NCBI GenBank assembly: GCA_934359255.1
Contig: CAKRLG010000024.1
Span: 1-33,844 of the forward strand
DNA length: 33,844 nucleotides
Source of the DNA: an uncultured Ruminococcus sp.
GTDB lineage: Bacteria > Bacillota > Clostridia > Lachnospirales > Lachnospiraceae
Direction: 5' to 3'
Position numbers and translations under genes: made by a program. Below are positions 4,677 through 33,844 of this stretch, one piece after another. Numbering within the stretch: the first letter of the stretch is position 1; the number at the start of each line of letters is the position of its first letter. The notes beneath the pieces were generated by a model, which saw nothing but the letters and a program-made list of their open reading frames with translations, had not been told where the DNA came from and made no database searches.

Positions 4677-4820
4677 ATAGATTTTGTGTACCGCCAAATA
4701 TGAAAAAAGCCTCTTCGCGCACCGCAAAGAGGAGTCCAATTCTTCATTAAGAATGTATATTTCCTCGGCAGGCGTTCTAGCCTTATGCCTTCCGGCACCT
4801 GCTGTCTTCGGCGTGATACT
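4677..4820 (-). promoter_or_regulatory. L10 leader (ribosomal protein autoregulatory RNA)
   Basis: Transcribed 5' leader of rplJ. The minus strand has the typical L10-leader features: a structured region with GCAGGTGCCGGAAGGC and the complementary GCCTGCCGAGG, followed by a terminator hairpin (4703-4732). In Firmicutes this leader binds L10(L12)4 and controls termination before rplJ. Identification rests on position, arm sequences and the terminator; a covariance-model search was not possible. Confidence 0.85.
4703..4732 (-). terminator. Attenuator terminator of the L10 leader
   Basis: On the minus strand, CCTCTT, an 11-base loop, AAGAGG, then a T-rich run (CTTTTTT). It sits at the 3' end of the L10 leader, about 45 bases before the rplJ start, as expected of the regulated terminator. 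Confidence 0.8.
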
Positions 4821-4825
4821 AGTGT

Positions 4826-4854
4826 AGTATATCATCACACTTCCACCTTGTCAA
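4826..4854 (-). promoter_or_regulatory. Promoter of rplJ-rplL
   Basis: Perfect consensus on the minus strand: TTGACA (4849-4854), 17-base spacer, TATACT (4826-4831). Transcription would start near 4819 at the beginning of the L10 leader. Confidence 0.9.
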
Positions 4855-22319: not shown

Positions 22320-25300
22320 TTACTCTTCATCTTTTTTTCTTTTCTTACCTGCAAGGAAGATACCTGCGCCTGCAGCTGTTTTTCCTGCTGCAGCTGCGCC
22401 ACTGAAGTGTATGCCTGCGGCTACTGCAGCTGCCACTGCTGCCACACCGCCTCCGATCGTACCGTAGAATGCCGGTTTGTTGTTATAGAACTGTACCCAT
22501 GTATTTGCAGATACCAGGACGTCTACGCTTGCGGTTGTTGCTTCGTTGTTTGCTTTGTCATAAGCTTTTACAGATACATTCCGGAATGTGTTGGAAGAAT
22601 CCACACTCAGTTCCAGAGAACCGCCGTTTGCAGATACTTCGTCTGCATCGAAGGTCTGTTTCAGCTCATCGTCTACATAGTACTCCACTTTATCCAGAGC
22701 CATGTTATCATCTACGTTTGCTGTGAATTTCTGGCTTTCTACTTTATATCTTCCGCCGTCTTCGATGTTCGCCAGGGAGATAACCGGTGAAGTCTTATCC
22801 ACTGCAAAGAGGATATCTTTGGACTTGGCTGTGTTGGTTGTTACGTTGGTTGCACGGTCTTCGGAGTAGATGGAAACGTTGTAGTCTCCTTCATTCTCGA
22901 AGTTGGATGCGTTGATGGTGTATTTGTATTCTTTCCAGCTTACATCGCTTCCGGACTCACTTACTTCAAAGTCTTTGTTCTGTTCCAGAGTCTTCTGTGT
23001 TCCGTTCTCGGATACCGTCAGTTCCTGGAAGGTCAGGGTATCTACGTTGATCTCGGATGCTACCAGATTCTTCGGATCGTTGGTGTAACCATTCTTGATC
23101 AGTTCTTCTGTATAATCATCATACAGATATGTAGAACCGTCACGGTTTACAGAGAAGATCTTGGATGTGCTGTACTGATTTCCTGCTTTGTCGGTTGTCT
23201 CAGCAGTCAGAGTATAGATATCATCCATATTTTCTTTGAAGTTGTAGAAAGTAAGTGTCTGACCTTTGTTGCTTGCTACAGAAGTGTACATGCCTGTGGT
23301 ATCTACCTCTCCCTTATTAGCTCCGGTCAGGTGAACAACTGTCTTGCCGCTGTCGAAGTTGATATCATTCAGTGTGATAACAGGAGCTACTTCTCCGTTA
23401 TTTGCGGAATAATCTTCGATATTGGTGATCTCTACTGTCGGTTTTGTCTGGTCAACGGTAAAGCTTTCTGTTGCATATGGATCGGATACATTGCTTGCCA
23501 GGTCTGTTGCACTGATGGTAAATGTATAATCTGCATCTGCAGAGTAAGAAACGGTTGCCACATGTGTATCCCCGGATCCTGACCATCCGCTTACGCCCGG
23601 TGCGGAAGCTGCTGCACCATCCAGCTGTGCTGTTGTTGTAACTGTCACTTCACCAGGATTGAAGTTATGCTCGGTGATGGTGATGGTTACTGTTCTTGCT
23701 TCTTTGTAATAGTTGTTATTTAATGCACTGTTGTTGTCATAAGAAACCTGGATCACAGGTTTTGTCTTATCAACAGTGAACTCATCCAGTTTCTCAGTAT
23801 TGGACTTGTTGCCTGCCAGGTCGAAGCAGTCATAGGTTACTGTGTAATCACTGTCACCGCTGAAGGTTACAGTAGCTGTATGGATCTCTCCGTTGTGAGA
23901 CCATCCGCTGATGCTGTATCCGCCGCCTGCTGTAGATGTAACCTGTGGCTGGTAGCTTTCATCAAAGTTACGCTCGTCTACTGTGATTGTCAGAGTTTTG
24001 TCATTGTTGTAGTATTTTCCGTTGTGTACATCGCTCTGATCGAAAGAGAATGTAACGATTGGAGCTTTGTTATCCACTTTGATACTGATTTCTTCGGATG
24101 CTGCCTCGTTGGTGGACCAGTCATCTGCGGTAACTTTTACACGAACATCGTTGGAGTAGAAGTTATCCGGGTTGATGGTTACATGTCCGGTCCAGCTCTG
24201 CAGGTGAGATGTTCTCTCCAGGTTTGCCAGTGTTCCGGATTCTACATAACCGGTGGTTCCGTTTGTGATTGTGTAGGAAATTGTCTTCAGTCCTGCATAT
24301 GCATCGTTTACAACAGGATCGGTAACGCTGATATCAAATCCAGGATTATCAGAAGCGCTGTATACACCTTTTCCCCATCCAGGATTGGTAGGAGTGATCT
24401 TCACTACCGGTACCGGTGCCCCATTATCAACGATGATTCCGTCAGTACTGATGTACTGGATATTTCCTGCTTTATCTGTGATCTTTTCATATACAACCAG
24501 GTTCTGGCTTGCTGCCAGGCTAATCTTGCTGCTGTAACCGGTCCATCCGGTTCTTGCTTCCAGTTCGCTTCTTGTCAGTGCTTTTGCAGAGGTCAGATAC
24601 TGAGTAGCTGCCACACCTGCAGTCTCATCATCACTTGTCATAGAAGCTCTTACACTGTTCTTACCAAAGTGTCCAAATGTAATTGCACTCAGGAACTTGT
24701 TCCATGTCTCAGAAGCAGATCCGTTCACCAGATCTTCTACTGTTACAGTACCTTCCGGTTTTGCGCGGTCCAGGGTAACTGCCTGTTTGATGGTTTCATT
24801 GATCGGATTACCAGCCAGATCGGTGTAGTCATAAGCGAAATCATAGTTGGCATCTACACTGATCGTCGGCAGAGACAGTTCGTATACAAAACGGTTGTCT
24901 TCTGTGCTGACATTTCCTTTGTTGTTCCATTCTTCGCGGATCGCTGCGTCATAATCTGCAACTTTCACTGCTTTTCCTTTGCTGTTTACTGCTGTGTAAG
25001 CAACTTTTGCATCTTTTGCATCGAAGTTTCTCTCTGTGATCACTGTAGTTACAGCTACAAAAGCTACTTCTTCATTTGCATAAGCACGTCCCTGGGACGG
25101 ATCCAAAACAAAGCTTGTTCCGTTCGGACGATATGCAGTGTAAGTAACCTGCATCTCAGGTCTTACTGTGTCAATCACGAAGGAGAATTCCTTGTCTTCT
25201 CCTGTATTTCCGGCTGCATCAGCTACCTTAGTCTGTACCGTGTATTCACCATCTTTGTGGAATACGATCGTGAATTTGTATATGGTACTGTCTGTGGTAT

Positions 25301-28300
25301 CTGCAAAATTATTCACCGGATCCATTGAGATTTCTTTGATACCCAGAGCATCTTTCTGAGAATTCAGTTCTTCCAGAGTATACTCGGTTCCATTCAGTGT
25401 TACTTTCAGAACGTTTAAGAAACGCTCGGTTACATTAACAGAATAGGTAACATCACTGTTTGCATATTTGGCATTTAAGAAAGCGCCATTGTTGTTTGCC
25501 TGTGCATAAGAAGAATCTACTGTCGGCGCGATAGAGTCCAGAACCAATGTGTAGTCTGCACGGGTTTCCATTGCATTGCCGGCATTGTCATTTGCTGTTG
25601 CGGAAACTGTGATCACCTGAGATTTTTCCGGGTCGTTCTTCAGTTCCAGAAGTTTTTTGATGGTACAATATTTTTGAAGTTCTTCCAGCGTTACATCTTT
25701 CGGGAAGCCATATTCATTTGTTTCTGTGACTTCTTCTTCTGTATCTTTTTTACCATCTCCCCAGTGTCTGGAAATGGTATACTGCATTTTTTCCAGTCCG
25801 GAGTAGAATTTGCTTTCACTTGCGTTTTCTTTTGCTGTCAGATTCAATTCTGCATCACCTGAATAATAGGTTCTGCTGTCTACTGTTCCCTGCTGAGTGG
25901 TTGTCGATGCTGGTTTTTCATTGTATTCAACCGTAATGTCATGGAAGTTTTCCAGAACAACACCATTGGATCCGTAGATTTTTGTATTTCCTACGTTATC
26001 CTTCACTTTTACGAAAACAATATAATTGTTAGATCCCAGTGTCTCACCGTCTTTTAATTTTCCAACGGGTACTGTATACGTGTCAGTTCCTGCTGTAAAA
26101 TGTGCATTTGTCAATTCTTCAGCGTAGTCATCCTCTGTAAGTAATCCTTTAAAGGAATTGTCCTTGTCTGTGTTAGCCACAAAATAAGACCAGCCTTTAA
26201 TTCCTGATAAATCGTCTGAAAACTTAACTGTTGCTTCGATATTTTTATTTTTGTAAATACCAAAAGTGATCGTCGTTGTCAGATCGGTTACTACCTTATT
26301 CTCTTCTCCGAATTTGATTTCGCTGCACTGTGGTTCAGCCGGATCGTATTTGAAAGTAATCTTAAATTCATTTGTTCTGTTTAATACTTTTCCGTCGTTA
26401 TCTTCCTTAGCAAGATAGGTATATTTTTCTACATCAGTTCCTGCTACGTACGCTTCTGCTTCTTTTAAACCTTCCGTTGTAAGATCTTTACCATTTTTGA
26501 GATAAATCTTGTTGTATCCGCCTTCTAATGCGAATTTGATTACTGCATCTTTTCCGTAATAACGGTCATGGTTTTCATTTTCATAAGCATGTGTGCTTGC
26601 GTTGTTGTTGATTGTCACATAATCTGTAGCATCTGTAATATTTTCTTCTGTTACTTTCAGATTACCATGTTTATAAGAATTAAAATCAAATTTGTAATTG
26701 CTTGTCGGATCTCCTGATTTCTTATCCAGTCCCAATGCATTGGTGTGTTCAGAACAGGTTGCAGTATCATTCTTCTTTACATTATCCGGTGTAAGATTTG
26801 TAGCAGTGGTATCCACTACTGTAGGATAGGTGAATCTGTCCAGATTTTCGATTGCATCCTTTCCCGCAAATCCGGTGTCTCCGCTCGGAGGATTTACAGA
26901 TACCAGCTGATCCAGAGCTCTTGTATATCCCAGGCTTCTGTATGGACGTGTGGAATCTGCTACGGTAAGATTCAGGGTTCTTTTCAGGATGGTTACTTTA
27001 GCTGTTGCTTTTTCTCCAGATCCGATCACATATTTATCTTTGATATTTTCTGCTAAATCTGTGCACAATGAAAAATCTGTCGGCGCAAAATCAAAGCTCT
27101 GTTCTTCTTCATTTCCCTTTACATTGATTTTTCCAGTTTTATATCCTTTAAAAATCAGATTTGTAAAGTATGTACTTACTTCGTTTTTTGCAGCCTCTGT
27201 CAGATCCTTACCGCCTACCAGAGTAGCCTGTACATCAACAAGATCTGTTGCATCGTAGATTTTTTCATTTTTATACTCTGTCTTACCGGATCCCGCTACT
27301 GAAACAGTATCTTCCAGTGTTAATTTATACGGATCCACTTTTACATATAATTTTTTTTCAAATTTGTAATTTGGTGTCTCTGCAGTCACCGTAAAAGGAA
27401 CTTCTTCTTTAGTTGCACTGTTTGCATGGAATACCAATTGCAATTGCAACGGTTTTCCGCTTTCTGCCTCTGGCGCTACTATTTTAGGTGTCACTTGTAT
27501 AGCTGAATTATCACATGTGACATTTAATTTCACCTGACTTACGTCAGAAAGCTCTTCTGTTTTAAGAAGATCTTTATTCTTATCTCTTAACTCCAGTGTT
27601 TTTACAACGTCTTCTGTTCCGTAAGTAAACGTCACAGTTTTGGTGTCCTTTTTTTCATAGGAAAGGCTTCCAGAATCTTTTGTTGTCTTGTAAGTTATTC
27701 CTTCAGTACATGGCAGATAGGCATCATCACCTTCGAAGGATGCTGAAACAGGTATATCACCTACAATCTTATACACTTTTACTTCTTTAGGTTTAAACTC
27801 ACCGTTCGGATCTGTTAGACCATTTAACTCTGTCGAACCAATTAATTTATTCTTTACATTAACCGTTATTTTTCTTCCCTGAACAGGAGCTTCTGACTCA
27901 TCTGTTAAACGAACTGTTATCTGCAATGGTATGTCCCAAGAGTTTCCTTCTGCAGATTCGTTATTTGTACTTATCTTTAATTTTGTAGCATTTTTAGTAA
28001 CTTGAATTTCTTTGTCTACCAACTTTTTATTACTACAATATGCTGCCAGAGTAAAACTTTGTCCACCTACTTTTGCAGAAACAACACCAGTAGCATCAAC
28101 AGTAGCCTTTGCAGCGTTGCTGCCTTCGATTACCCATCGATCCACCTTGTCGCTCCAATTTCCATCCAAAGTGTACTTCACTTCAGACAACGCCTTGATA
28201 CTAGCAGCCCCTGAGATTGTTCCAACTTTCGGAGTTAATTCTCCAATCTTTAAAACCAATGTCGGATTTTCTGAATCCGCATTTTCTACTGTGGAGGTAA

Positions 28301-28799
28301 TATTTCCGAGCGTATACATTCCAGAATTGTCGCTAATGCTACCTTCTTTTATGCTATAGGTTTTACCAGTAGCATATTCCATCCCTGTAATTGTGGATGA
28401 TTTTGGATCCACAGTACAAGCTACTTCTTTTTCACCATTTGACAGAGTGAAACTTACATTTCCTAAGTCTACTCCACCAATAGTTCCAGCACCTTCACCC
28501 AAAACTACCTTAACACTCAGATATTTTGTTTCTGCTGCCGGCGGCGCAGATGGTGCAGTCGGTCCTTCCGGTTCGCCGGATGGTGCTACCGTGCCTCCTT
28601 CACCGCTTCCTCCAGGTGTTCCTGTTTCTGTTGTACCCGGAATGACTTCTCCACTGCCGCTTCCCTCTTCTGCAAGAGGTTCGATCGTTTCTCCTGCTTC
28701 TGTAGCCATAACGGTGTATGGGCTGGAGGTTACGCAGGTTGACAATGCGAAGACAACGGCCATAAAGAATGCCAGGATTCTCTTTGTTCTTTGTTTCAT
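22320..28799 (-). CDS. Giant Ig-like/MBG-repeat cell-surface protein (2159 aa)
   Basis: Exported, membrane-anchored surface protein, the last gene of the kinase operon. A signal peptide (KQRTKRILAFFMAVVFALST..., likely cut after VMA near residue 32) is followed by a Gly/Pro/Glu/Ser-rich linker (about 45-92). About residues 490-720 resemble YDG/MBG-type repeats (KIYDATDLVDVQATLVG; SNYKFDFNSYKHGNLKVTEE). The rest to about 2090 is a run of bacterial Ig-like domains of about 90-110 residues, each with pieces such as KPVIQVSYDN, NNYYKEARTVTITITEHNF and ATDLASN. The C-terminus has an Ala/Gly-rich hydrophobic helix and the basic tail AGKKRKKDEE; there is no LPXTG. The start ATG is four bases after the upstream gene, whose end contains its GAAGGAG site, suggesting translational coupling. 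An adhesin or stalk role is inferred. Confidence 0.9.
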   Translation of the reverse strand: MKQRTKRILAFFMAVVFALSTCVTSSPYTVMATEAGETIEPLAEEGSGSGEVIPGTTETGTPGGSGEGGTVAPSGEPEGPTAPSAPPAAETKYLSVKVVLGEGAGTIGGVDLGNVSFTLSNGEKEVACTVDPKSSTITGMEYATGKTYSIKEGSISDNSGMYTLGNITSTVENADSENPTLVLKIGELTPKVGTISGAASIKALSEVKYTLDGNWSDKVDRWVIEGSNAAKATVDATGVVSAKVGGQSFTLAAYCSNKKLVDKEIQVTKNATKLKISTNNESAEGNSWDIPLQITVRLTDESEAPVQGRKITVNVKNKLIGSTELNGLTDPNGEFKPKEVKVYKIVGDIPVSASFEGDDAYLPCTEGITYKTTKDSGSLSYEKKDTKTVTFTYGTEDVVKTLELRDKNKDLLKTEELSDVSQVKLNVTCDNSAIQVTPKIVAPEAESGKPLQLQLVFHANSATKEEVPFTVTAETPNYKFEKKLYVKVDPYKLTLEDTVSVAGSGKTEYKNEKIYDATDLVDVQATLVGGKDLTEAAKNEVSTYFTNLIFKGYKTGKINVKGNEEEQSFDFAPTDFSLCTDLAENIKDKYVIGSGEKATAKVTILKRTLNLTVADSTRPYRSLGYTRALDQLVSVNPPSGDTGFAGKDAIENLDRFTYPTVVDTTATNLTPDNVKKNDTATCSEHTNALGLDKKSGDPTSNYKFDFNSYKHGNLKVTEENITDATDYVTINNNASTHAYENENHDRYYGKDAVIKFALEGGYNKIYLKNGKDLTTEGLKEAEAYVAGTDVEKYTYLAKEDNDGKVLNRTNEFKITFKYDPAEPQCSEIKFGEENKVVTDLTTTITFGIYKNKNIEATVKFSDDLSGIKGWSYFVANTDKDNSFKGLLTEDDYAEELTNAHFTAGTDTYTVPVGKLKDGETLGSNNYIVFVKVKDNVGNTKIYGSNGVVLENFHDITVEYNEKPASTTTQQGTVDSRTYYSGDAELNLTAKENASESKFYSGLEKMQYTISRHWGDGKKDTEEEVTETNEYGFPKDVTLEELQKYCTIKKLLELKNDPEKSQVITVSATANDNAGNAMETRADYTLVLDSIAPTVDSSYAQANNNGAFLNAKYANSDVTYSVNVTERFLNVLKVTLNGTEYTLEELNSQKDALGIKEISMDPVNNFADTTDSTIYKFTIVFHKDGEYTVQTKVADAAGNTGEDKEFSFVIDTVRPEMQVTYTAYRPNGTSFVLDPSQGRAYANEEVAFVAVTTVITERNFDAKDAKVAYTAVNSKGKAVKVADYDAAIREEWNNKGNVSTEDNRFVYELSLPTISVDANYDFAYDYTDLAGNPINETIKQAVTLDRAKPEGTVTVEDLVNGSASETWNKFLSAITFGHFGKNSVRASMTSDDETAGVAATQYLTSAKALTRSELEARTGWTGYSSKISLAASQNLVVYEKITDKAGNIQYISTDGIIVDNGAPVPVVKITPTNPGWGKGVYSASDNPGFDISVTDPVVNDAYAGLKTISYTITNGTTGYVESGTLANLERTSHLQSWTGHVTINPDNFYSNDVRVKVTADDWSTNEAASEEISIKVDNKAPIVTFSFDQSDVHNGKYYNNDKTLTITVDERNFDESYQPQVTSTAGGGYSISGWSHNGEIHTATVTFSGDSDYTVTYDCFDLAGNKSNTEKLDEFTVDKTKPVIQVSYDNNSALNNNYYKEARTVTITITEHNFNPGEVTVTTTAQLDGAAASAPGVSGWSGSGDTHVATVSYSADADYTFTISATDLASNVSDPYATESFTVDQTKPTVEITNIEDYSANNGEVAPVITLNDINFDSGKTVVHLTGANKGEVDTTGMYTSVASNKGQTLTFYNFKENMDDIYTLTAETTDKAGNQYSTSKIFSVNRDGSTYLYDDYTEELIKNGYTNDPKNLVASEINVDTLTFQELTVSENGTQKTLEQNKDFEVSESGSDVSWKEYKYTINASNFENEGDYNVSIYSEDRATNVTTNTAKSKDILFAVDKTSPVISLANIEDGGRYKVESQKFTANVDDNMALDKVEYYVDDELKQTFDADEVSANGGSLELSVDSSNTFRNVSVKAYDKANNEATTASVDVLVSANTWVQFYNNKPAFYGTIGGGVAAVAAAVAAGIHFSGAAAAGKTAAGAGIFLAGKKRKKDEE

Positions 28800-28803
28800 G
28801 TCC

Positions 28804-29316
28804 TCAGACTCCTTCCTTCAGCTGAGTATTTTTCTCGGCTGATTCCTCTTTTACCTTGCGGTATCTTATAACTTTTCTTTTATGTAAAAACTTGTATACC
28901 CTTCCGTTCAGGACGAAGTGTCCGTAGAAGGATACCATGGTTATCCACATACAAACTAACATGACGGGATCCGGTATGTTGAACACGTAGGTTCCGAGTA
29001 TGATCACCAGGAATCCCGGGATGAATACAAGATCTGCGATCAATCCCTCTTTGGTGGATCCGGGTGCAAGTGCACCGATACGCTCCACCGAGCGATAATT
29101 TTGATAGCTTTTCAGATTTCTTATCTTCTGGCAGCTGAGGATGTAGAGGAAAATCCCCCATAACAGTCCTACCCAGAAGATACCCCCGGCAAGTACTGCT
29201 ATTGCCGGGTGTTTTTCTCTGTCGGCTATCGGAAGAAATGCGACCACTGTAGATGATATAAGGAAGAAAACCATCGACAGATCATTAAATATCCTTGCTG
29301 CTTTTCTCTTTTTCAT
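28804..29316 (-). CDS. Small four-TM membrane protein of unknown function
   Basis: 170 residues with four hydrophobic segments (about 12-28, 38-60, 93-112, 116-136) and Lys/Arg-rich ends (MKKRKAARIF at the start, FLHKRKVIRYRKVKEE near the end), so both ends are probably cytosolic. I do not recognise the family. Its ATG overlaps the stop of the threonine-array gene by one base (TGATG), and the surface-protein gene follows four bases after its stop, so it is firmly part of the operon. It could be an assembly or topology partner of the array protein, kinase or surface protein; nothing in the sequence decides between these. Confidence 0.85.
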   Translation of the reverse strand: MKKRKAARIFNDLSMVFFLISSTVVAFLPIADREKHPAIAVLAGGIFWVGLLWGIFLYILSCQKIRNLKSYQNYRSVERIGALAPGSTKEGLIADLVFIPGFLVIILGTYVFNIPDPVMLVCMWITMVSFYGHFVLNGRVYKFLHKRKVIRYRKVKEESAEKNTQLKEGV

Positions 29317-30251
29317 CAGATCACCTTCTCCGTATGTATCAGGATGATACTTCTTTCTATCTCAAAGATACTGTTGGAATGCTGCAGCATGTTCGGATCC
29401 AGAACCATGGTTCCTTCCTGTTCCGGTGTAGATCCATGCTGTCTTTCCTGTACCGGGTTGGCGATCATGGACGGATCCAGGATATCCGTGGCTGCCATAC
29501 CGCCTTCCTGAAGCATGGCCTCTGTCAGAATATCAGTAGCCTGTGCATCCTCTCTCATGGACGGATCTAATGCACCGGTGGCTTCCGAACCTGTCATCAT
29601 GGACGGATCTAACACATCCGTAGCCTCAGATCCTGTCATCATGGATGGATCCAGTACATCTGTGGCTTCCGATCCTGCCATCATGGACGGTTCTAACACA
29701 TCCGTAGCCTCGGATCCTGTCATCATGGATGGATCCAGTACATCTGTGGCTTCCGATCCTGCCATCATGGACGGATCTAACACATCTGTGGCCTCAGCTC
29801 CACTCATCATGGATGCATCCAGCACATCTGTGGCTTCCGATCCGTTGGCTGCGGTTTCCTGCATCATGCCGTTGTTTTCGGAACTATTTGCCATATTCAG
29901 ATTCATCTGACCGGTTGGTTCACCAAACTCCTGGCTCATCCGGCCGCTGAGATCATCGGTAAGATTGTCTGTATAGTGACGTCTCTGTACCAGCTGTCCG
30001 GTTCCTTTTTTCTTGTTTTTGGACTTTTTATCCATAGAAACGATACGTCCGGAGTCGCTGCTGTTGGCTGCCATCTCTTCCATGGCTTTCTGTGCACTCT
30101 TTCCCCTGTATTCGTTCAATACCTGTGGGATATGCAGATAGAAGAAAAGGAATATCGCCAGTGCAAGGAACAGCAAGGCAGCAATCCCAAATCCCAGCTG
30201 CAGATTGCTCAGAAGCTGGATCTGCTGTTCAATATTTTGTGGCTGCCCCAT
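29316..30251 (-). CDS. Membrane-anchored threonine-repeat protein, candidate kinase substrate/FHA scaffold
   Basis: 311 residues. One N-terminal transmembrane helix (about 19-45, LGFGIAALLFLALAIFLFFY) is followed by a basic stretch (MDKKSKNKKKGTGQLVQRRHY), so the rest should face the cytosol. From residue 137 to 292 it carries about ten copies of a motif like S-E-A-T-D-V-L-D-P-S-M-M-x-G; threonines stand at 141, 155, 169, 183, 197, 211, 225 and 239, exactly 14 residues apart, then at 255 and 281. Acidic residue before Thr and Leu at +3 fit a Ser/Thr kinase target read by an FHA domain (pT-x-x-L). The ATG overlaps the kinase stop by one base (TAATG). No known family name. Phosphorylation is inference. 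Confidence 0.88.
   Translation of the reverse strand: MGQPQNIEQQIQLLSNLQLGFGIAALLFLALAIFLFFYLHIPQVLNEYRGKSAQKAMEEMAANSSDSGRIVSMDKKSKNKKKGTGQLVQRRHYTDNLTDDLSGRMSQEFGEPTGQMNLNMANSSENNGMMQETAANGSEATDVLDASMMSGAEATDVLDPSMMAGSEATDVLDPSMMTGSEATDVLEPSMMAGSEATDVLDPSMMTGSEATDVLDPSMMTGSEATGALDPSMREDAQATDILTEAMLQEGGMAATDILDPSMIANPVQERQHGSTPEQEGTMVLDPNMLQHSNSIFEIERSIILIHTEKVI
29376..29843 (-). repeat. 42-bp tandem repeat array encoding the threonine motif
   Basis: In-frame tandem repeats of 42 bases inside the threonine-repeat gene. Two codon variants alternate: one reads (plus strand) ATGGACGGATCTAACACATC and the other ATGGATGGATCCAGTACATC, so the true duplicated unit in the middle is 84 bases. Outer copies are more diverged, and the last two are degenerate with altered spacing. 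Confidence 0.88.
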
Positions 30252-32101
30252 TACTGATCACCTCCGCTCTTCACGGCATCAGAATTCTGTGCATACAGAG
30301 ATTCTACCAGTTTCTTGGTGTTATCCACGGTTGTTATCGTATTATCACGGATCCGCTGTGCCGTCTGGTTGGAACCGGTATCAGCACCGGAGACCCTTGT
30401 CTCGATGGCTGCCAGGGCACCCTGGAAGGTTGCCTTGTCCACACCGGCATCTGATACGAACTGTTTTGCATTTTCATACAGCTGATAGGACACATCGTTC
30501 AACAGTCGAAGCTGTGTCAGACGTTCCCGGCTTTCTGTACTGATGGTTTCCGGAAGTCCGCCTACCAGACCGTTTAATTCTACCCAGAAATCCGAGTAGG
30601 AATATTTGATCTCACCGGTTACGGTATCTTCCTGACCTACTTTTCCGTAATAACTACAGATACTTAAGAAGGTTTCCACCAGATTGGTGTCGATATCGTA
30701 TTCCTGGATCTTATCTGCAGATAATTTATCTGTGGAATCCAGTCCGAATGCTTTCAGCTGGTCATCGGACAACACGGCCTGTGCTACGATACCGAACCAT
30801 TTTTTTGCAAGTTCTTTATCTCCTGCCGGTTTTCCGGCGCCACCCGGGAAGTAGTAAGCCATTCCCAGCTCGTAAGCCAACTCGGTGTAACCGTCCAGAT
30901 TGTCTTCCAGCACCTCTTCGTAAGTCTGTCTTCCTGCCGTCTGCTGCAGCAGGGCTTTAAAATCCTGGCTGTCCTGACCGGAGAAGCCGTCTTCATCATT
31001 TCGCAGGGCATCCATATAAACCAGATAGGCCTCTTCCTTGCCAGGGTCGATGGCAACTGCCTTTTTCGCATAATTGACTTTGGCTGTTCCGTCACTCTTC
31101 TCTGCCTGGTCTACATAATAATCATAGCCGCTTTGCTCTGTTTTGTTCTCCATCAGCATACAGCCAAGGGAAATACCGCCGCATAAGACAGCTACTGCTG
31201 CACTGACACCAAAGCCAAGCAGCTTATTTCTTAATTTCTTTCGATATGGAAGGCTCAGCTCCTCGATATGTTCCAGATCGTACAGCATTTCCAGGCAGGA
31301 TTCGTATCGATTCTCCGGCTCATACTGTGTACAGCGATCAATGATCATCTCCAGACCAAGCAGCTTATTCATATCCTCTCTCGGGATCTCATCTACCAGA
31401 CTTGGCCGGCACTGTGTGATCTTCGGAAAGTTAAACGGTGTAGGGGAAGGATTTCTTCCGGTGATCAGATGATGGAGGGTTGCACCCAGACAGTAAATAT
31501 CACTTCGGGGTGTGGACTGTCCGTTTCCTCCGTACTGTTCCGGTGAAGCATATCCCGGTGTTCCCAGACATGTGGTGTCTTCTCTGTTCCCCTGTTTAAA
31601 GGTACGGGCGGTACCAAAGTCGATCAGGGAGATCTCTCCGTCCGGCTTCAGCATGACGTTGCCCGGTTTCATATCTCGATAAATAATGGGATTCGGTCTG
31701 GTATGAAGGTAGTAGAACACTTCACACAGCTGTTTTCCCCAGGCGATCACATCGTCCAGTGCGATGGGAAGCCCTTCTTTTTCCATACTTCCTTTCAGGA
31801 TCTTATCCAGTGATTTCCCCTGGATATAATCCATAACGATCAGGAAGGAATCCCCGTCATCGATCACATCGATGATACTTGGCAGGTATTTGTGATTCAG
31901 TTCTTTCAGAATGTTGGTCTCAGCGATCAACCCCTGTTTGACTGTGGTAAAATCCTGCTGTCCATCTTTTCGGACCTCTTTGATGGCCCATGTTTTATTT
32001 GCTTTTTCATTCAATGCCAGATAGACGACACTCATACCGCCCTGGCCGATCTTATTTAATACTTTGTATTTTCCGTCTACATAAGAACCTATCTGCAGCA
32101 T
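30251..32101 (-). CDS. Transmembrane serine/threonine protein kinase with extracellular TPR-like region
   Basis: Hanks-type kinase of the bacterial PknB class, 616 residues from ATG 32099-32101 (MLQIGSYVDGKYKVLNKIG), chosen because GGGAGGG lies six bases before it; an upstream in-frame ATG lies inside the phosphatase gene. Kinase residues are complete: GQGGMSVVY loop (19-27), Lys41, YRDMKPGN with Asp144, Lys146 and Asn149, DFG Asp162, and an activation loop with Thr176, Thr177 and Thr181 before SPEQY. One transmembrane helix (about 294-317) is followed by about 300 extracellular residues with a TPR-like start (VNYAKKAVAIDPGKEEAYLVYMDAL) and no PASTA domains. It is two bases downstream of the phosphatase gene and overlaps the threonine-array gene, its probable substrate. 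Confidence 0.94.
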   Translation of the reverse strand: MLQIGSYVDGKYKVLNKIGQGGMSVVYLALNEKANKTWAIKEVRKDGQQDFTTVKQGLIAETNILKELNHKYLPSIIDVIDDGDSFLIVMDYIQGKSLDKILKGSMEKEGLPIALDDVIAWGKQLCEVFYYLHTRPNPIIYRDMKPGNVMLKPDGEISLIDFGTARTFKQGNREDTTCLGTPGYASPEQYGGNGQSTPRSDIYCLGATLHHLITGRNPSPTPFNFPKITQCRPSLVDEIPREDMNKLLGLEMIIDRCTQYEPENRYESCLEMLYDLEHIEELSLPYRKKLRNKLLGFGVSAAVAVLCGGISLGCMLMENKTEQSGYDYYVDQAEKSDGTAKVNYAKKAVAIDPGKEEAYLVYMDALRNDEDGFSGQDSQDFKALLQQTAGRQTYEEVLEDNLDGYTELAYELGMAYYFPGGAGKPAGDKELAKKWFGIVAQAVLSDDQLKAFGLDSTDKLSADKIQEYDIDTNLVETFLSICSYYGKVGQEDTVTGEIKYSYSDFWVELNGLVGGLPETISTESRERLTQLRLLNDVSYQLYENAKQFVSDAGVDKATFQGALAAIETRVSGADTGSNQTAQRIRDNTITTVDNTKKLVESLYAQNSDAVKSGGDQ

Positions 32102-32103
32102 GC

Positions 32104-32883
32104 TTATCCCTCCCGACATGTCCGGATAACAGCTGCCGATATGTTATCCACTTCTTTTCTGGATTTGTTCAGTTCCACCAGTGAGACGATATTCTGAAGC
32201 ATGATATCTTCGTTCTCCAGAAGTTCCGGACGAAACTTCTCATAGATCTCATCCGGTGAGATCACATGGCGGAATCCATCGGAGCAGAGAATAAAGGTGG
32301 TATCCGGATTGGCATCGCCCACGAAATAATCCGGGTGGATCTCATCCGATGCTCCTACACACTGGAGCAGTACATTTCTCTGGGGATGGGTCTGTGCCTG
32401 CTCCCAGGTCAGATGTCCCAAGTCCATCTCGTACTGCACATAGGTCTGATCCTTCGTCAGCTGATAGATGGCATCGGAAACCATGTAAGCTCTGGAGTCG
32501 CCGATGTTCATGATGTAATATTTGTCATCCACAACCAGAAAAGCTACGACTGTTGTACCCATGCGTGTTCCTATTCCAGATGCATACTTTGCCAGTTTCT
32601 TGTTCTGCCGCATTACCAGATCGTCCCACTGTACACGAAGTTCATCCATTGGAAATTCCGGTGTTTCCAGCAAGCCGGGAAGTTTGTTGATAAACCACTG
32701 ATCAAACTCCCGGATCACTGTTGCACTGGCTAACTCGCCATCAGCCAGACCGCCCATTCCGTCACACACGACACACAGACAAACCTTATCATGGTTTGTC
32801 TGTGCGATTTTCACGAGTACTGAGTCCTGATTTGTTTTCTTCACAATACCCACATCGCTGTGAGCTGCTATTTTATAAATCAT
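32104..32883 (-). CDS. PP2C-family protein phosphatase
   Basis: Metal-dependent Ser/Thr phosphatase (PrpC/Stp class) that should reverse the neighbouring kinase. I chose ATG 32881-32883 (MIYKIAAHSDVGIVKKTNQD, 259 residues) because AGAGG lies seven bases upstream; two earlier in-frame ATGs overlap that site. Metal-binding and family motifs are all present: KTNQDS, VVCDGMGGLADGE, MGTTVVAFLV, NIGDSRAYM, QLTKDQTYV, LCSDGF and DNISAAVIR. Cytosolic. It is followed two bases later by the kinase and preceded 28 bases earlier by the FHA gene. Confidence 0.95.
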   Translation of the reverse strand: MIYKIAAHSDVGIVKKTNQDSVLVKIAQTNHDKVCLCVVCDGMGGLADGELASATVIREFDQWFINKLPGLLETPEFPMDELRVQWDDLVMRQNKKLAKYASGIGTRMGTTVVAFLVVDDKYYIMNIGDSRAYMVSDAIYQLTKDQTYVQYEMDLGHLTWEQAQTHPQRNVLLQCVGASDEIHPDYFVGDANPDTTFILCSDGFRHVISPDEIYEKFRPELLENEDIMLQNIVSLVELNKSRKEVDNISAAVIRTCREG

Positions 32884-32911
32884 CCTCATACCTCTCATTT
32901 ATTATTCAATT

Positions 32912-33193
32912 TTATGCACGAAACAGAAATTCTTCATCTGCCAGACGAATGGTTTCATTTCCTGTCAGTGCGCGTTCTTTTCCTGCCGATACTGCCACAC
33001 CGTTTACATTGGTTCCGTTTGTAGCATTGTTATCAACGATTGCAAATGCTCCGTTGCGGTATACGATGGTTGCATGTGTACGACTGATATTGCTGTTTCC
33101 GGTAATACAATAATCTACTTTGTTTCTCTCTTTACCGATACGGAATTCTGCTTTATCAATTGTGATCTTCTCACCTGTTTTCTTTCTGATCAG
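32912..33193 (-). CDS. Stand-alone FHA-domain protein with non-standard start
   Basis: Phosphothreonine-binding FHA domain, 93 residues. The frame reads KITIDKAEFRIGKERNKVDY, then NSNISRTHATI, DNNATNGTNVNG and LADEEFLFRA; the binding residues are Arg18/Gly20, Ser37-Arg38, His40 and Asn59-Gly60. There is no ATG, GTG or TTG in frame before the domain, and an in-frame TGA stands at about 33204. The best start is CTG 33191-33193, six bases after AAAGGAG; ATC three codons on is an alternative. A frameshift from the ATG at 33208 is possible but would start without a ribosome binding site. It lies 28 bases before the PP2C gene and is the likely reader of the threonine array. Confidence 0.8.
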   Translation of the reverse strand: MIRKKTGEKITIDKAEFRIGKERNKVDYCITGNSNISRTHATIVYRNGAFAIVDNNATNGTNVNGVAVSAGKERALTGNETIRLADEEFLFRA

Positions 33194-33257
33194 ATTTCTC
33201 TCCTTTCATAACCCGTATATGGGTAAATTATTCTCTCCGTCTTGATACTATTAAGCC

Positions 33258-33285: not shown

Positions 33286-33384
33286 TACCTTTACAGCCAC
33301 AAAATACGTGCTATAAAACGTGAACGCACGCTTTAAAAGTTCAAGTTGTTGTTCGTGTTAATTTTAAAATACAGGGAGGGACAT

Positions 33385-33639
33385 ATGGAATATTCAGAAT
33401 TGTATAGACAACGAATACGTTTTTTGTGTAATCAGCGTCACATCTCAGTGAATAAGCTGGCAACAATGAGCGGTGTAAAACAATCTACGCTGGATAATAT
33501 CGTCCGTGGCATCACCAAAGATCCACGGGCATCCACACTTCATAAGATCTCTAACGCTTTTAATATGACATTGGCTGAATTTCTGGATTTTGAAGAATTA
33601 AATGATTACATTTTTTCAGATGAGACTGATGAATTGTAA
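33385..33639 (+). CDS. XRE-family helix-turn-helix regulator
   Basis: Small DNA-binding protein of the Cro/C1 type. ATG 33385-33387 (MEYSELYRQRIRFLCNQRHI, 84 residues) is chosen because GGGAGG lies five bases before it. The helix-turn-helix is clear: ISVNKLATMSGVKQSTLDNIV, followed by KDPRASTLHKISNAFNMTLAEFLDF. The acidic C-terminal tail is EELNDYIFSDETDEL. It is divergent from the FHA-PP2C-kinase operon and may regulate it, but such single-domain XRE proteins are common and the link is only positional. A minus-strand promoter behind it (33733-33761) reads antisense through it. Confidence 0.88.
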   Translation: MEYSELYRQRIRFLCNQRHISVNKLATMSGVKQSTLDNIVRGITKDPRASTLHKISNAFNMTLAEFLDFEELNDYIFSDETDEL

Positions 33640-33769: not shown

Positions 33770-33844
33770 ATCGAGTAGGAGGCGGTGACTAACCGCCGTC
33801 CTCTCACACCACCGTGCGTACCGTTCGGTACACGGCGGTTTCAA
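33770..33844 (-). mobile_element. 3' end of a group II intron (domains V and VI), continuing beyond the window
   Basis: On the minus strand the sequence folds as a domain V (33809-33838: CCGCCGTG / CACGGTGG with one mismatch, a two-base CG bulge, TACC/GGTA and a GAAC tetraloop). It is followed by GTGTGAGAGGACGG and a domain VI stem (GGCGGT/ACCGCC with AGGA/TCCT, 33777-33802). The intron would end at about 33770 in CTACTCGAT, i.e. AY as expected. The CGC at the domain V triad position is like that reported for some bacterial group IIC introns. The reverse transcriptase ORF, if present, is outside the window. Confidence 0.75.

Follow-up and report, generated by a model that had tools for sequence, protein, structure and literature searches.

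A probable T7SSe-type phospho-signalling and surface module with a threonine motif array in an Oliverpabstia-like Lachnospiraceae genome

The locus described here raises the question whether a set of genes known from a secretion system can work apart from it. It lies in a 33,844 nt stretch of DNA from an uncultured Ruminococcus sp. (Lachnospiraceae; assembly GCA_934359255.1, contig CAKRLG010000024.1, positions 1 to 33,844 of the forward strand), which was analyzed as a whole and is called the window in the following. On its minus strand, genes for a PP2C phosphatase, a membrane Ser/Thr kinase, a single-transmembrane (TM) protein with a threonine-rich array, a four-TM protein and a giant Ig-like surface protein are intact and follow each other with overlaps or tiny gaps. 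Judged from sequence, the phosphatase, kinase, array and giant genes match the F, D, H and I components of the type VII secretion system (T7SS) subtype T7SSe. The module is apparently a T7SSe-type F-D-H-I set without the secretion machine, and its H protein carries a phosphothreonine-type array. With moderate confidence, it is read here as a phospho-signalling and surface module of an Oliverpabstia-like Lachnospiraceae lineage, the nearest sequenced relative of which lacks EssC and WXG100; the array of the module would dock FHA proteins.

Conservation of the gene order and state of the FHA gene

T7SSe, together with T7SSd, was described by Garrett, Higginson and Palmer (2024; PMC11217815) and was defined from gene neighbourhoods. 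The sections of that paper used here list the kinase TseD, the PPM phosphatase TseF, the single-TM protein TseH with a cytosolic tail, the large Ig-like TseI with a signal peptide and a C-terminal TM helix, and the DUF6382-FHA protein TseJ. Further parts are the EssC-type ATPase TseC, the WXG100 proteins TseA/TseA2, the ubiquitin-like TseB and the single-TM protein TseK. The first-pass annotation of the window had known of no described system with such a gene set, whereas most parts were published in 2024 as T7SSe components according to these sections (PMC11217815). Within the literature searched, T7SSe and DUF6382 occur in this paper only, and the combination of a trypsin-like with an FHA domain as well as a phosphothreonine FHA/PknB motif gave no match.

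The window genes were named F, D, H and I because of their position, their architecture and their homology to locus L024, the published T7SSe sequences themselves not being compared. In L024, EssC (TIGR03928, 1044 bits, cut-off 778.4) and two WXG100 genes stand in a row with genes for a DUF6382-FHA protein, PP2C, kinase, array, four-TM and giant protein, with one unnamed 120-aa gene between them. The gene in the YukD position of this row encodes 83 aa and has no Pfam or NCBIfam match. The arrangement of L024 agrees with that described for T7SSe.

For the analysis of the gene order, the best 80 of 488 relatives by kinase similarity (L056-L135, from a scan of named genomes with eight kinases) were combined with the window and eight earlier loci, resulting in a total number of 89 loci. 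The PP2C cluster was found in 81 of them, the array family in 76, the giant gene in 71, the protease-FHA gene in 36, a second FHA cluster (named after DUF6382, which was confirmed by Pfam in L120 and L024) in 30, the four-TM gene in 29 and a second kinase in 14. The order was counted in the 82 loci whose kinase has 540-660 aa; several of these loci are cut by contig ends. In 75 of these the phosphatase gene lies directly 5′ of the kinase gene and in 73 the array gene follows directly 3′, with median gaps of 11 bases and 1 base, respectively; the giant gene lies at most four genes 3′ of the kinase gene in 61. Conservation of the order in relatives had been set beforehand as the refuting test, and the phosphatase-kinase-array-giant order was kept in 54 of the 82 loci, 39 of which also have an FHA gene 5′ of the PP2C gene. 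The sample includes near-duplicate loci (L060/L061, L064/L066, L088/L089 and L128/L132), loci on the same contigs (L023/L115 and L058/L176) and one repeated genome (G210 repeats G161), and the genome sets overlap slightly. A profile of the array matched 35 of 150 Lachnospiraceae genomes and 8 of 293 genomes sampled from the class, three of these eight lying outside the family.

The nearest genome compared, G001 (99% complete), has 58% of the sampled words in common. Its operon proteins are 95-99% identical to those of the window, the giant protein 80%.

A sixth operon gene, coding an intact FHA reader, had been proposed in addition. While the five genes named above are intact in a conserved operon, the sixth was found to be the 3′ end of a larger gene. 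Its frame in the window comprises 97 codons without ATG, GTG or TTG. The codon at 33193, previously taken as the gene start, is CTG (33193-33191), a possible start with AAGGAG six bases 5′ of it, and with the frame ending at 32912 the gap to the phosphatase gene is 13 bases instead of 28. The 599-aa protein P0209, with protease and FHA domains, is identical to the window FHA in its last 93 residues (93/93, protein search), and the window DNA aligns with the FHA part alone of the relatives' protease-FHA gene. In relatives, the full gene codes for a signal peptide, a trypsin-like protease, a TM helix, a linker and an FHA domain (L018: PF13365, 1.8e-24; PF00498, 1e-14). By these alignments, the window frame is a 5′-truncated 3′ remnant of a protease-TM-linker-FHA gene, which may still start at the CTG codon.

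Two other explanations of the frame were rejected. An original stand-alone FHA gene is ruled out by the 599-aa protein with the identical FHA domain. Restoration of the gene by group II intron splicing is ruled out since 564 bases with a divergent helix-turn-helix (HTH) gene separate the intron end from the fragment.

In G001, an insertion-like element (L017 5522-6940; two minus-strand frames, the first with PF13936), which we take to be IS30-like, takes the place of the HTH start and of the initial portion of the FHA, and the same junction occurs in the 66-member protein cluster P0005. The window and G001 share the 3′ part of the HTH frame together with the bases that follow it (77.7% over 211 columns). 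As the two breaks differ, the FHA gene has been broken in two ways in close strains, and an intact reader is present in the operon of neither.

Both breaks, the one in the window having the HTH gene and the intron end upstream, could be signs of a module decaying in this lineage, with the protease-FHA protein already lost and the remainder unused, and the 66-member cluster that carries the second junction is counted for the same view. However, the ratio of non-synonymous to synonymous differences per site (pN/pS) between the window and G001 is 0.023 for the kinase (62 synonymous differences) and 0.020 for the phosphatase (21.5 synonymous differences), and all five non-FHA frames are open in both strains. 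Near-identical intact forms of the protease-FHA protein are common, moreover (P0204 with 312 member sequences, P0218 on 88 contigs), and decay is considered unlikely. The corresponding ratios are 0.18 for the array, 0.23 for the four-TM and 0.49 for the giant protein; the FHA stretch kept in both strains has 9 synonymous and 4 non-synonymous differences (pN/pS 0.15).

In the FHA family, a Ser, an Arg, a His and an Asn, presumably the phosphate-binding residues, are kept in 62-63 of 63 domains, and all four are present in the window FHA. Of 35 protease-FHA proteins, 27 have a complete catalytic triad. Ser, His or Asp is incomplete in the other eight (L080, L084, L086, L087, L095, L096, L099 and L118), which are possible pseudoproteases by sequence; all but L118 adjoin T7SS-cluster genes.

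A further cluster, of genes of about 500 aa (L068: Cro/C1-type HTH, PF13443), is represented in 13 loci; in most of them the gene is found 5′ of the one for the protease-FHA protein, and often in the opposite orientation (L056, L057, L060-L064, L066, L068, L073, L085 and others).

A threonine motif array in the TseH-like protein

The proteins of the array family consist of an N-terminal TM helix, a juxtamembrane TG..A.K.I-like segment and a tail, which mostly ends in a C-terminal IHT.E.I; the conserved C-terminus reads IHTEKVI in the window. The window array holds 13 TxxL motifs, nine of which are T-x-[VI]-L. For the family-wide analysis, 73 tails distinct by their last 40 residues were used (3 of 76 were dropped). 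TxxL was observed 342 times, compared with 67.7 ± 7.5 in shuffled tails. The 13 other residues at the +3 position reached a z of 2.0 at most, and Leu at +4 was depleted.

Since repeats inflate site counts, counting per protein was added. T.[VIL]L was found in 64 of the 73 proteins, with 11.1 ± 3.1 (maximum 20) after shuffling. The Ser version occurred in 6 proteins (8.5 expected) and the reversed motif in 16 (11.1 expected). The residue preceding the motif Thr is a Glu at 127 of 206 sites, and the resulting E-T-x-V-L resembles what we assume to be the mycobacterial PknB substrate and FHA preferences. Judged from these counts, the TseH tail is a Thr-specific, direction-specific Thr-x-[VIL]-Leu array, which is newly recognised here; the threonine array postulated for the window protein is a family-wide FHA-type motif.

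The same motif recurs in the FHA partners. Its strict form has a density of 12.8 per 1000 aa in the array, 3.4 in the protease-FHA proteins and 2.8 in the DUF6382-FHA cluster, with at most 0.54 in the other gene classes of the loci and 0.07 in the giant protein. The copies in the FHA partners are mostly found in the linker just before the FHA domain.

Near-identical strains differ in the array by whole 14-residue units. In a protein search with the array alignment (best 120 of 841 matches), forms of 283, 297 and 311 aa were represented by 71, 44 and 1 of the 116 proteins of this type among the matches listed. One protein of this type, P0119, is from a named Oliverpabstia intestinalis.

This variation in copy number, the near-perfect 42-nt repeats and a pN/pS above that of the kinase or phosphatase would also be expected of a neutral low-complexity tether whose repeats are slippage products and whose motif is not read. 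Such a tether is improbable, as the motif occurs in so many divergent proteins, is specific for Thr and for direction, and recurs in the FHA-partner linkers while being rare in the other genes of the loci. The preferred reading, that of an array docking FHA proteins, is kept in the following. In the sections of PMC11217815 used here, the tail of TsdH is described as short and "likely unstructured" and a motif array is not mentioned; the substrate of TseD and the role of TseH are likewise not stated there.

Occurrence without the secretion machine

EssC was defined as a match to TIGR03928 over the cut-off of 778.4 bits and WXG100 as a match to PF06013. No EssC-type ATPase was found among the 18 window proteins scanned. 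G001 has no TIGR03928 match over the cut-off, only a weak FtsK-like match (E 3.9e-31), and 0 PF06013 matches. The absence of the secretion machine from this nearest relative suggests that the module forms a switch of its own.

WXG100 was found in 19 of 36 module genomes tested (G019, with a weak array match, was left out). For 34 of these the EssC scan was also available: 17 carry both hallmarks (16 with EssC over the cut-off, G115 at 775.8 of 778.4 bits) and 17, G001 among them, carry neither. As incomplete metagenome-assembled genomes inflate the number of genomes without T7SS in the kinase-selected set, the claim of a module without the machine rests on these latter 17 genomes, which are 95-100% complete. 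The F-D-H-I order was identified in 13 of them, the giant gene of G078 being cut by a contig end; in the gene calls of G080, G094, G111 and G155 it is incomplete or unclear.

In a tree of 94 kinases (L061, L115 and L176 were dropped and L112 is unlabelled; L099 was counted as T7SS-positive because WXG100-cluster genes adjoin), the T7SS label changes 17 times, 13 of which are forced by starred branches, compared with 31 changes in shuffles. Gain and loss are indistinguishable in these counts, to which incomplete metagenome-assembled genomes add false changes. The window and G001 fall into a starred set of 8 rows, of which four carry the T7SS label and the other four do not.

Several observations weigh against a docking module without the machine. 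EssC, found in 36 of the 150 family genomes, is present in 16 of the 35 genomes with an array and in 20 of the 115 without (odds ratio 4.0, Fisher p 0.0013) and in 41 of 79 kinase-selected genomes (31/42 and 10/37 in the two sets). As EssC thus occurs with the module more often than by chance, the main role may still be related to T7SS, and for the window itself the absence of T7SS is drawn from G001. In the array, Leu is also enriched at +2 (182 vs 69.9, z 13.8, in the 73 tails), in part because many sites read T-T-[VL]-L, so that the register given for the motif is provisional. Eight of the 73 arrays have no T.[VIML]L at all, and the motif is perhaps dispensable. The FHA reader of the window operon is truncated, and Gly-Lys replaces Gly-Arg in it, as it does in 57 of the 63 FHA domains of the family. 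Phosphorylation, FHA binding and localisation of the module parts are predicted from sequence.

The association with EssC also speaks for an alternative in which the module supplies the membrane part of a T7SSe, with the genes for the ATPase, the WXG100 and the ubiquitin-like proteins at another place in the window genome. In the set with 31 EssC-positive genomes out of 42, EssC lies within 20 kb of the array gene on the same contig in 16 of the 31 (17 with G224, where the fragment of an EssC is all that lies on that contig), and in G004, with 3.6 of its 3.7 Mb in the largest contig, about 595 kb separate the module from EssC, which shows that unlinked machines exist. On the other hand, G001 is without WXG100 at 99% completeness and its EssC match is weak and under the cut-off, and 16 further module genomes of 95-100% completeness are without both. 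We consider a distant machine in the window genome about as improbable as the neutral tether.

The least likely explanation, that the module functionally belongs to tight adherence (Tad) pili and not to T7SS or to itself, draws on prepilin-peptidase or TadE-like cluster genes in 15 of the 82 loci, on a DUF6382-FHA-cluster gene in 16 of the 17 such loci among the 89 and on the EssC count of 10/37 in the kinase set holding most such loci, but most loci, the window included, are without such genes within the stretch examined, and while the prepilin peptidase was assigned by Pfam (PF01478), "TadE-like" was assigned by eye (three candidates have no Pfam match).

A 27-row group of the kinase tree (support 84), mostly of the DUF6382-FHA type, has 25 rows without EssC and one with it, and often adjoins prepilin-peptidase genes. 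Genes for a prepilin peptidase, WG repeats or TadE-like proteins (the latter by eye) are found in the loci of modules of this type, in genomes that mostly lack EssC (L023, L100, L107, L111, L113-L116, L119, L120, L122, L124, L128, L132 and L135).

Membrane components, proposed working and known systems

Across 62 sequences, the catalytic residues of the kinase do not vary. Its structure model (predicted local distance difference test, pLDDT, 84.9) has an all-helical ectodomain, and the Pfam scan of the window kinase gave no PASTA match, which agrees with the ectodomain without PASTA repeats assumed previously; that the kinase senses the surface protein, as was also suggested, is a hypothesis. 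The best PDB matches of the model are S. aureus Stk1/PknB. The kinase reached 171.9 bits against the NCBIfam Stk1/PknB equivalog (cut-off 450) and the phosphatase 173.4 bits against the Stp1-like equivalog (cut-off 230), both under the cut-off.

The second TM kinase, of about 630 aa (14 cluster members), lies 3′ of the giant gene (L057, L060, L064, L068, L073, L081, L083, L085 and others). In L081 it has TPR repeats, and HSD replaces HRD.

The giant protein ends in a TM helix with a short basic tail. In the alignment of the window protein with that of G001 (L017:11263-17652), the first three 200-column blocks are 63, 29 and 55% identical, blocks 4-5 86% and the following ones 98-99%, while the three genes neighbouring the giant gene have 96-97% DNA identity. 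The tip is called exchangeable because the first ~600 residues are 29-63% identical while the remainder is 86-99% identical: by this comparison, the N-terminal ~600 residues, distal to the membrane anchor, are exchanged and the stalk is nearly constant. Such a variable tip hints at the recognition of a changing partner. The model of the four-TM protein (pLDDT 91.8) had no PDB match with E <= 0.001 in a fold search.

The positions of all features are given in Table 1. As annotated before, the four-TM and the giant protein are encoded together with the kinase. The second Met is the probable start of the kinase, as it is in relatives, and with this start the gap of 2 bases between the phosphatase and kinase genes is obtained as claimed. 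In a scan for promoters and terminators the counts were near the shuffled mean, and the operon limits were not set by it. The intron end was seen in an Rfam scan of a short stretch; a scan of the whole window at the gathering threshold returned the L10 leader only. By size and order, the frames adjoining this leader resemble ribosomal protein and RNA polymerase genes.

Table 1. Features of the module and its surroundings in the window.
Feature	Position	Strand	Evidence
Giant Ig-like surface protein, TseI-like, 2159 residues	22320..28799	-	N-terminal hydrophobic signal, Ig-like domains
Four-helix membrane protein (TM4)	28804..29316	-	conserved family; invariant FW, H and G
TseH-like single-TM anchor with array	29316..30251	-	TM by hydropathy; cytosolic side inferred
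42-nt tandem repeat, 7.1 copies	29547..29843	-	codes for 14-residue units such as GSEATDVLDPSMMT
Membrane Ser/Thr kinase, TseD-like	30251..32119, likely start 32101	-	kinase domain, TM about 305-323, helical ectodomain
PP2C/PPM phosphatase, TseF-like	32104..32898	-	PF13672, 3e-12
FHA fragment (J′), open frame	32912..33205	-	PF00498, 6e-13; no ATG/GTG/TTG
Divergent Cro/C1-type HTH gene, upstream	33346..33639	+	PF13443, PF01381
Group II intron, 3′ end, at the window edge	33770..33840	-	RF00029, 43.5 bits, gathering 40
Ribosomal protein L10 leader	4695-4829	-	RF00557, 68.3 bits

Under the preferred reading, the kinase may sense the envelope through its helical ectodomain and would phosphorylate the TseH tail at its Thr-x-[VIL]-Leu sites. 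In this state the array would bring proteins with an FHA domain to the membrane. As a rule, this would be the protease-TM-FHA protein of the same operon; in loci of the T7SSe type, the secretion ATPase might dock through its FHA domains as well. Dephosphorylation by PP2C would reset the array. The four-TM protein and TseI may build or present an Ig-like fibre that is anchored in the membrane and has an exchangeable tip, and assembly, display or cleavage of this fibre would be the output. Since the FHA partner of the window is broken, the array would be read there either by the fragment started at CTG or in trans by another FHA protein. G001 has one other FHA match, a DUF6382-FHA protein on contig C34 (PF19909, 1.7e-47; PF00498, 6.7e-18).

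A wider reading is put forward tentatively, as a possibility for which we have less confidence. F-D-H-I with its FHA partner could be no component of type VII secretion but an autonomous phosphothreonine-gated surface system, onto which T7SS and Tad machines were coupled more than once, with TseH as a programmable multi-site scaffold. If so, the number of Thr-x-[VIL]-Leu units would set the FHA valence under a giant Ig fibre with its exchangeable tip, and the clustered FHA proteins would be a membrane-tethered extracellular protease, a secretion ATPase or a Tad-associated FHA protein. Phosphorylation inside the cell would then decide what is cut, secreted or displayed outside. The array offers a cheap and concrete test, with one protein, one motif, a kinase and a phosphatase from the same operon and an intact FHA in sister strains. 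Furthermore, the occurrences without the motor, in a gut-type Lachnospiraceae lineage, let the signalling and fibre module be studied alone.

Compared with T7SSe, the clustered TseD, TseF, TseH and TseI set of the window has the same order as in L024. In contrast, the window has no recognisable gene for an ATPase, a WXG100 or a ubiquitin-like protein (TseB was not searched for genome-wide), and the FHA partner is a truncated protease-FHA and not the DUF6382-FHA protein TseJ. The four-TM gene is not listed in the sections of PMC11217815 used here; its protein has four helices, and TseK is described as a single-TM protein.

The module shares the kinase fold and an Stp1-like phosphatase with the PASTA kinase/Stp1 pair (PknB, PrkC, IreK), but its proteins lie under the equivalog cut-offs and the helical ectodomain has no PASTA match. 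A parallel in working may be the threonine phosphorylation pathway of the type VI secretion system (PpkA, PppA, Fha), which likewise has a membrane kinase, a PP2C phosphatase, an FHA reader and a phosphorylated membrane protein, and whose listed parts control a surface machine. This comparison was drawn from abstracts and from the Discussion of PMC11217815 on Agrobacterium, and would be an analogy of working and not of membership. In contrast to that pathway, the module belongs to a Gram-positive host and its putative phospho-target is a multi-site tandem array.

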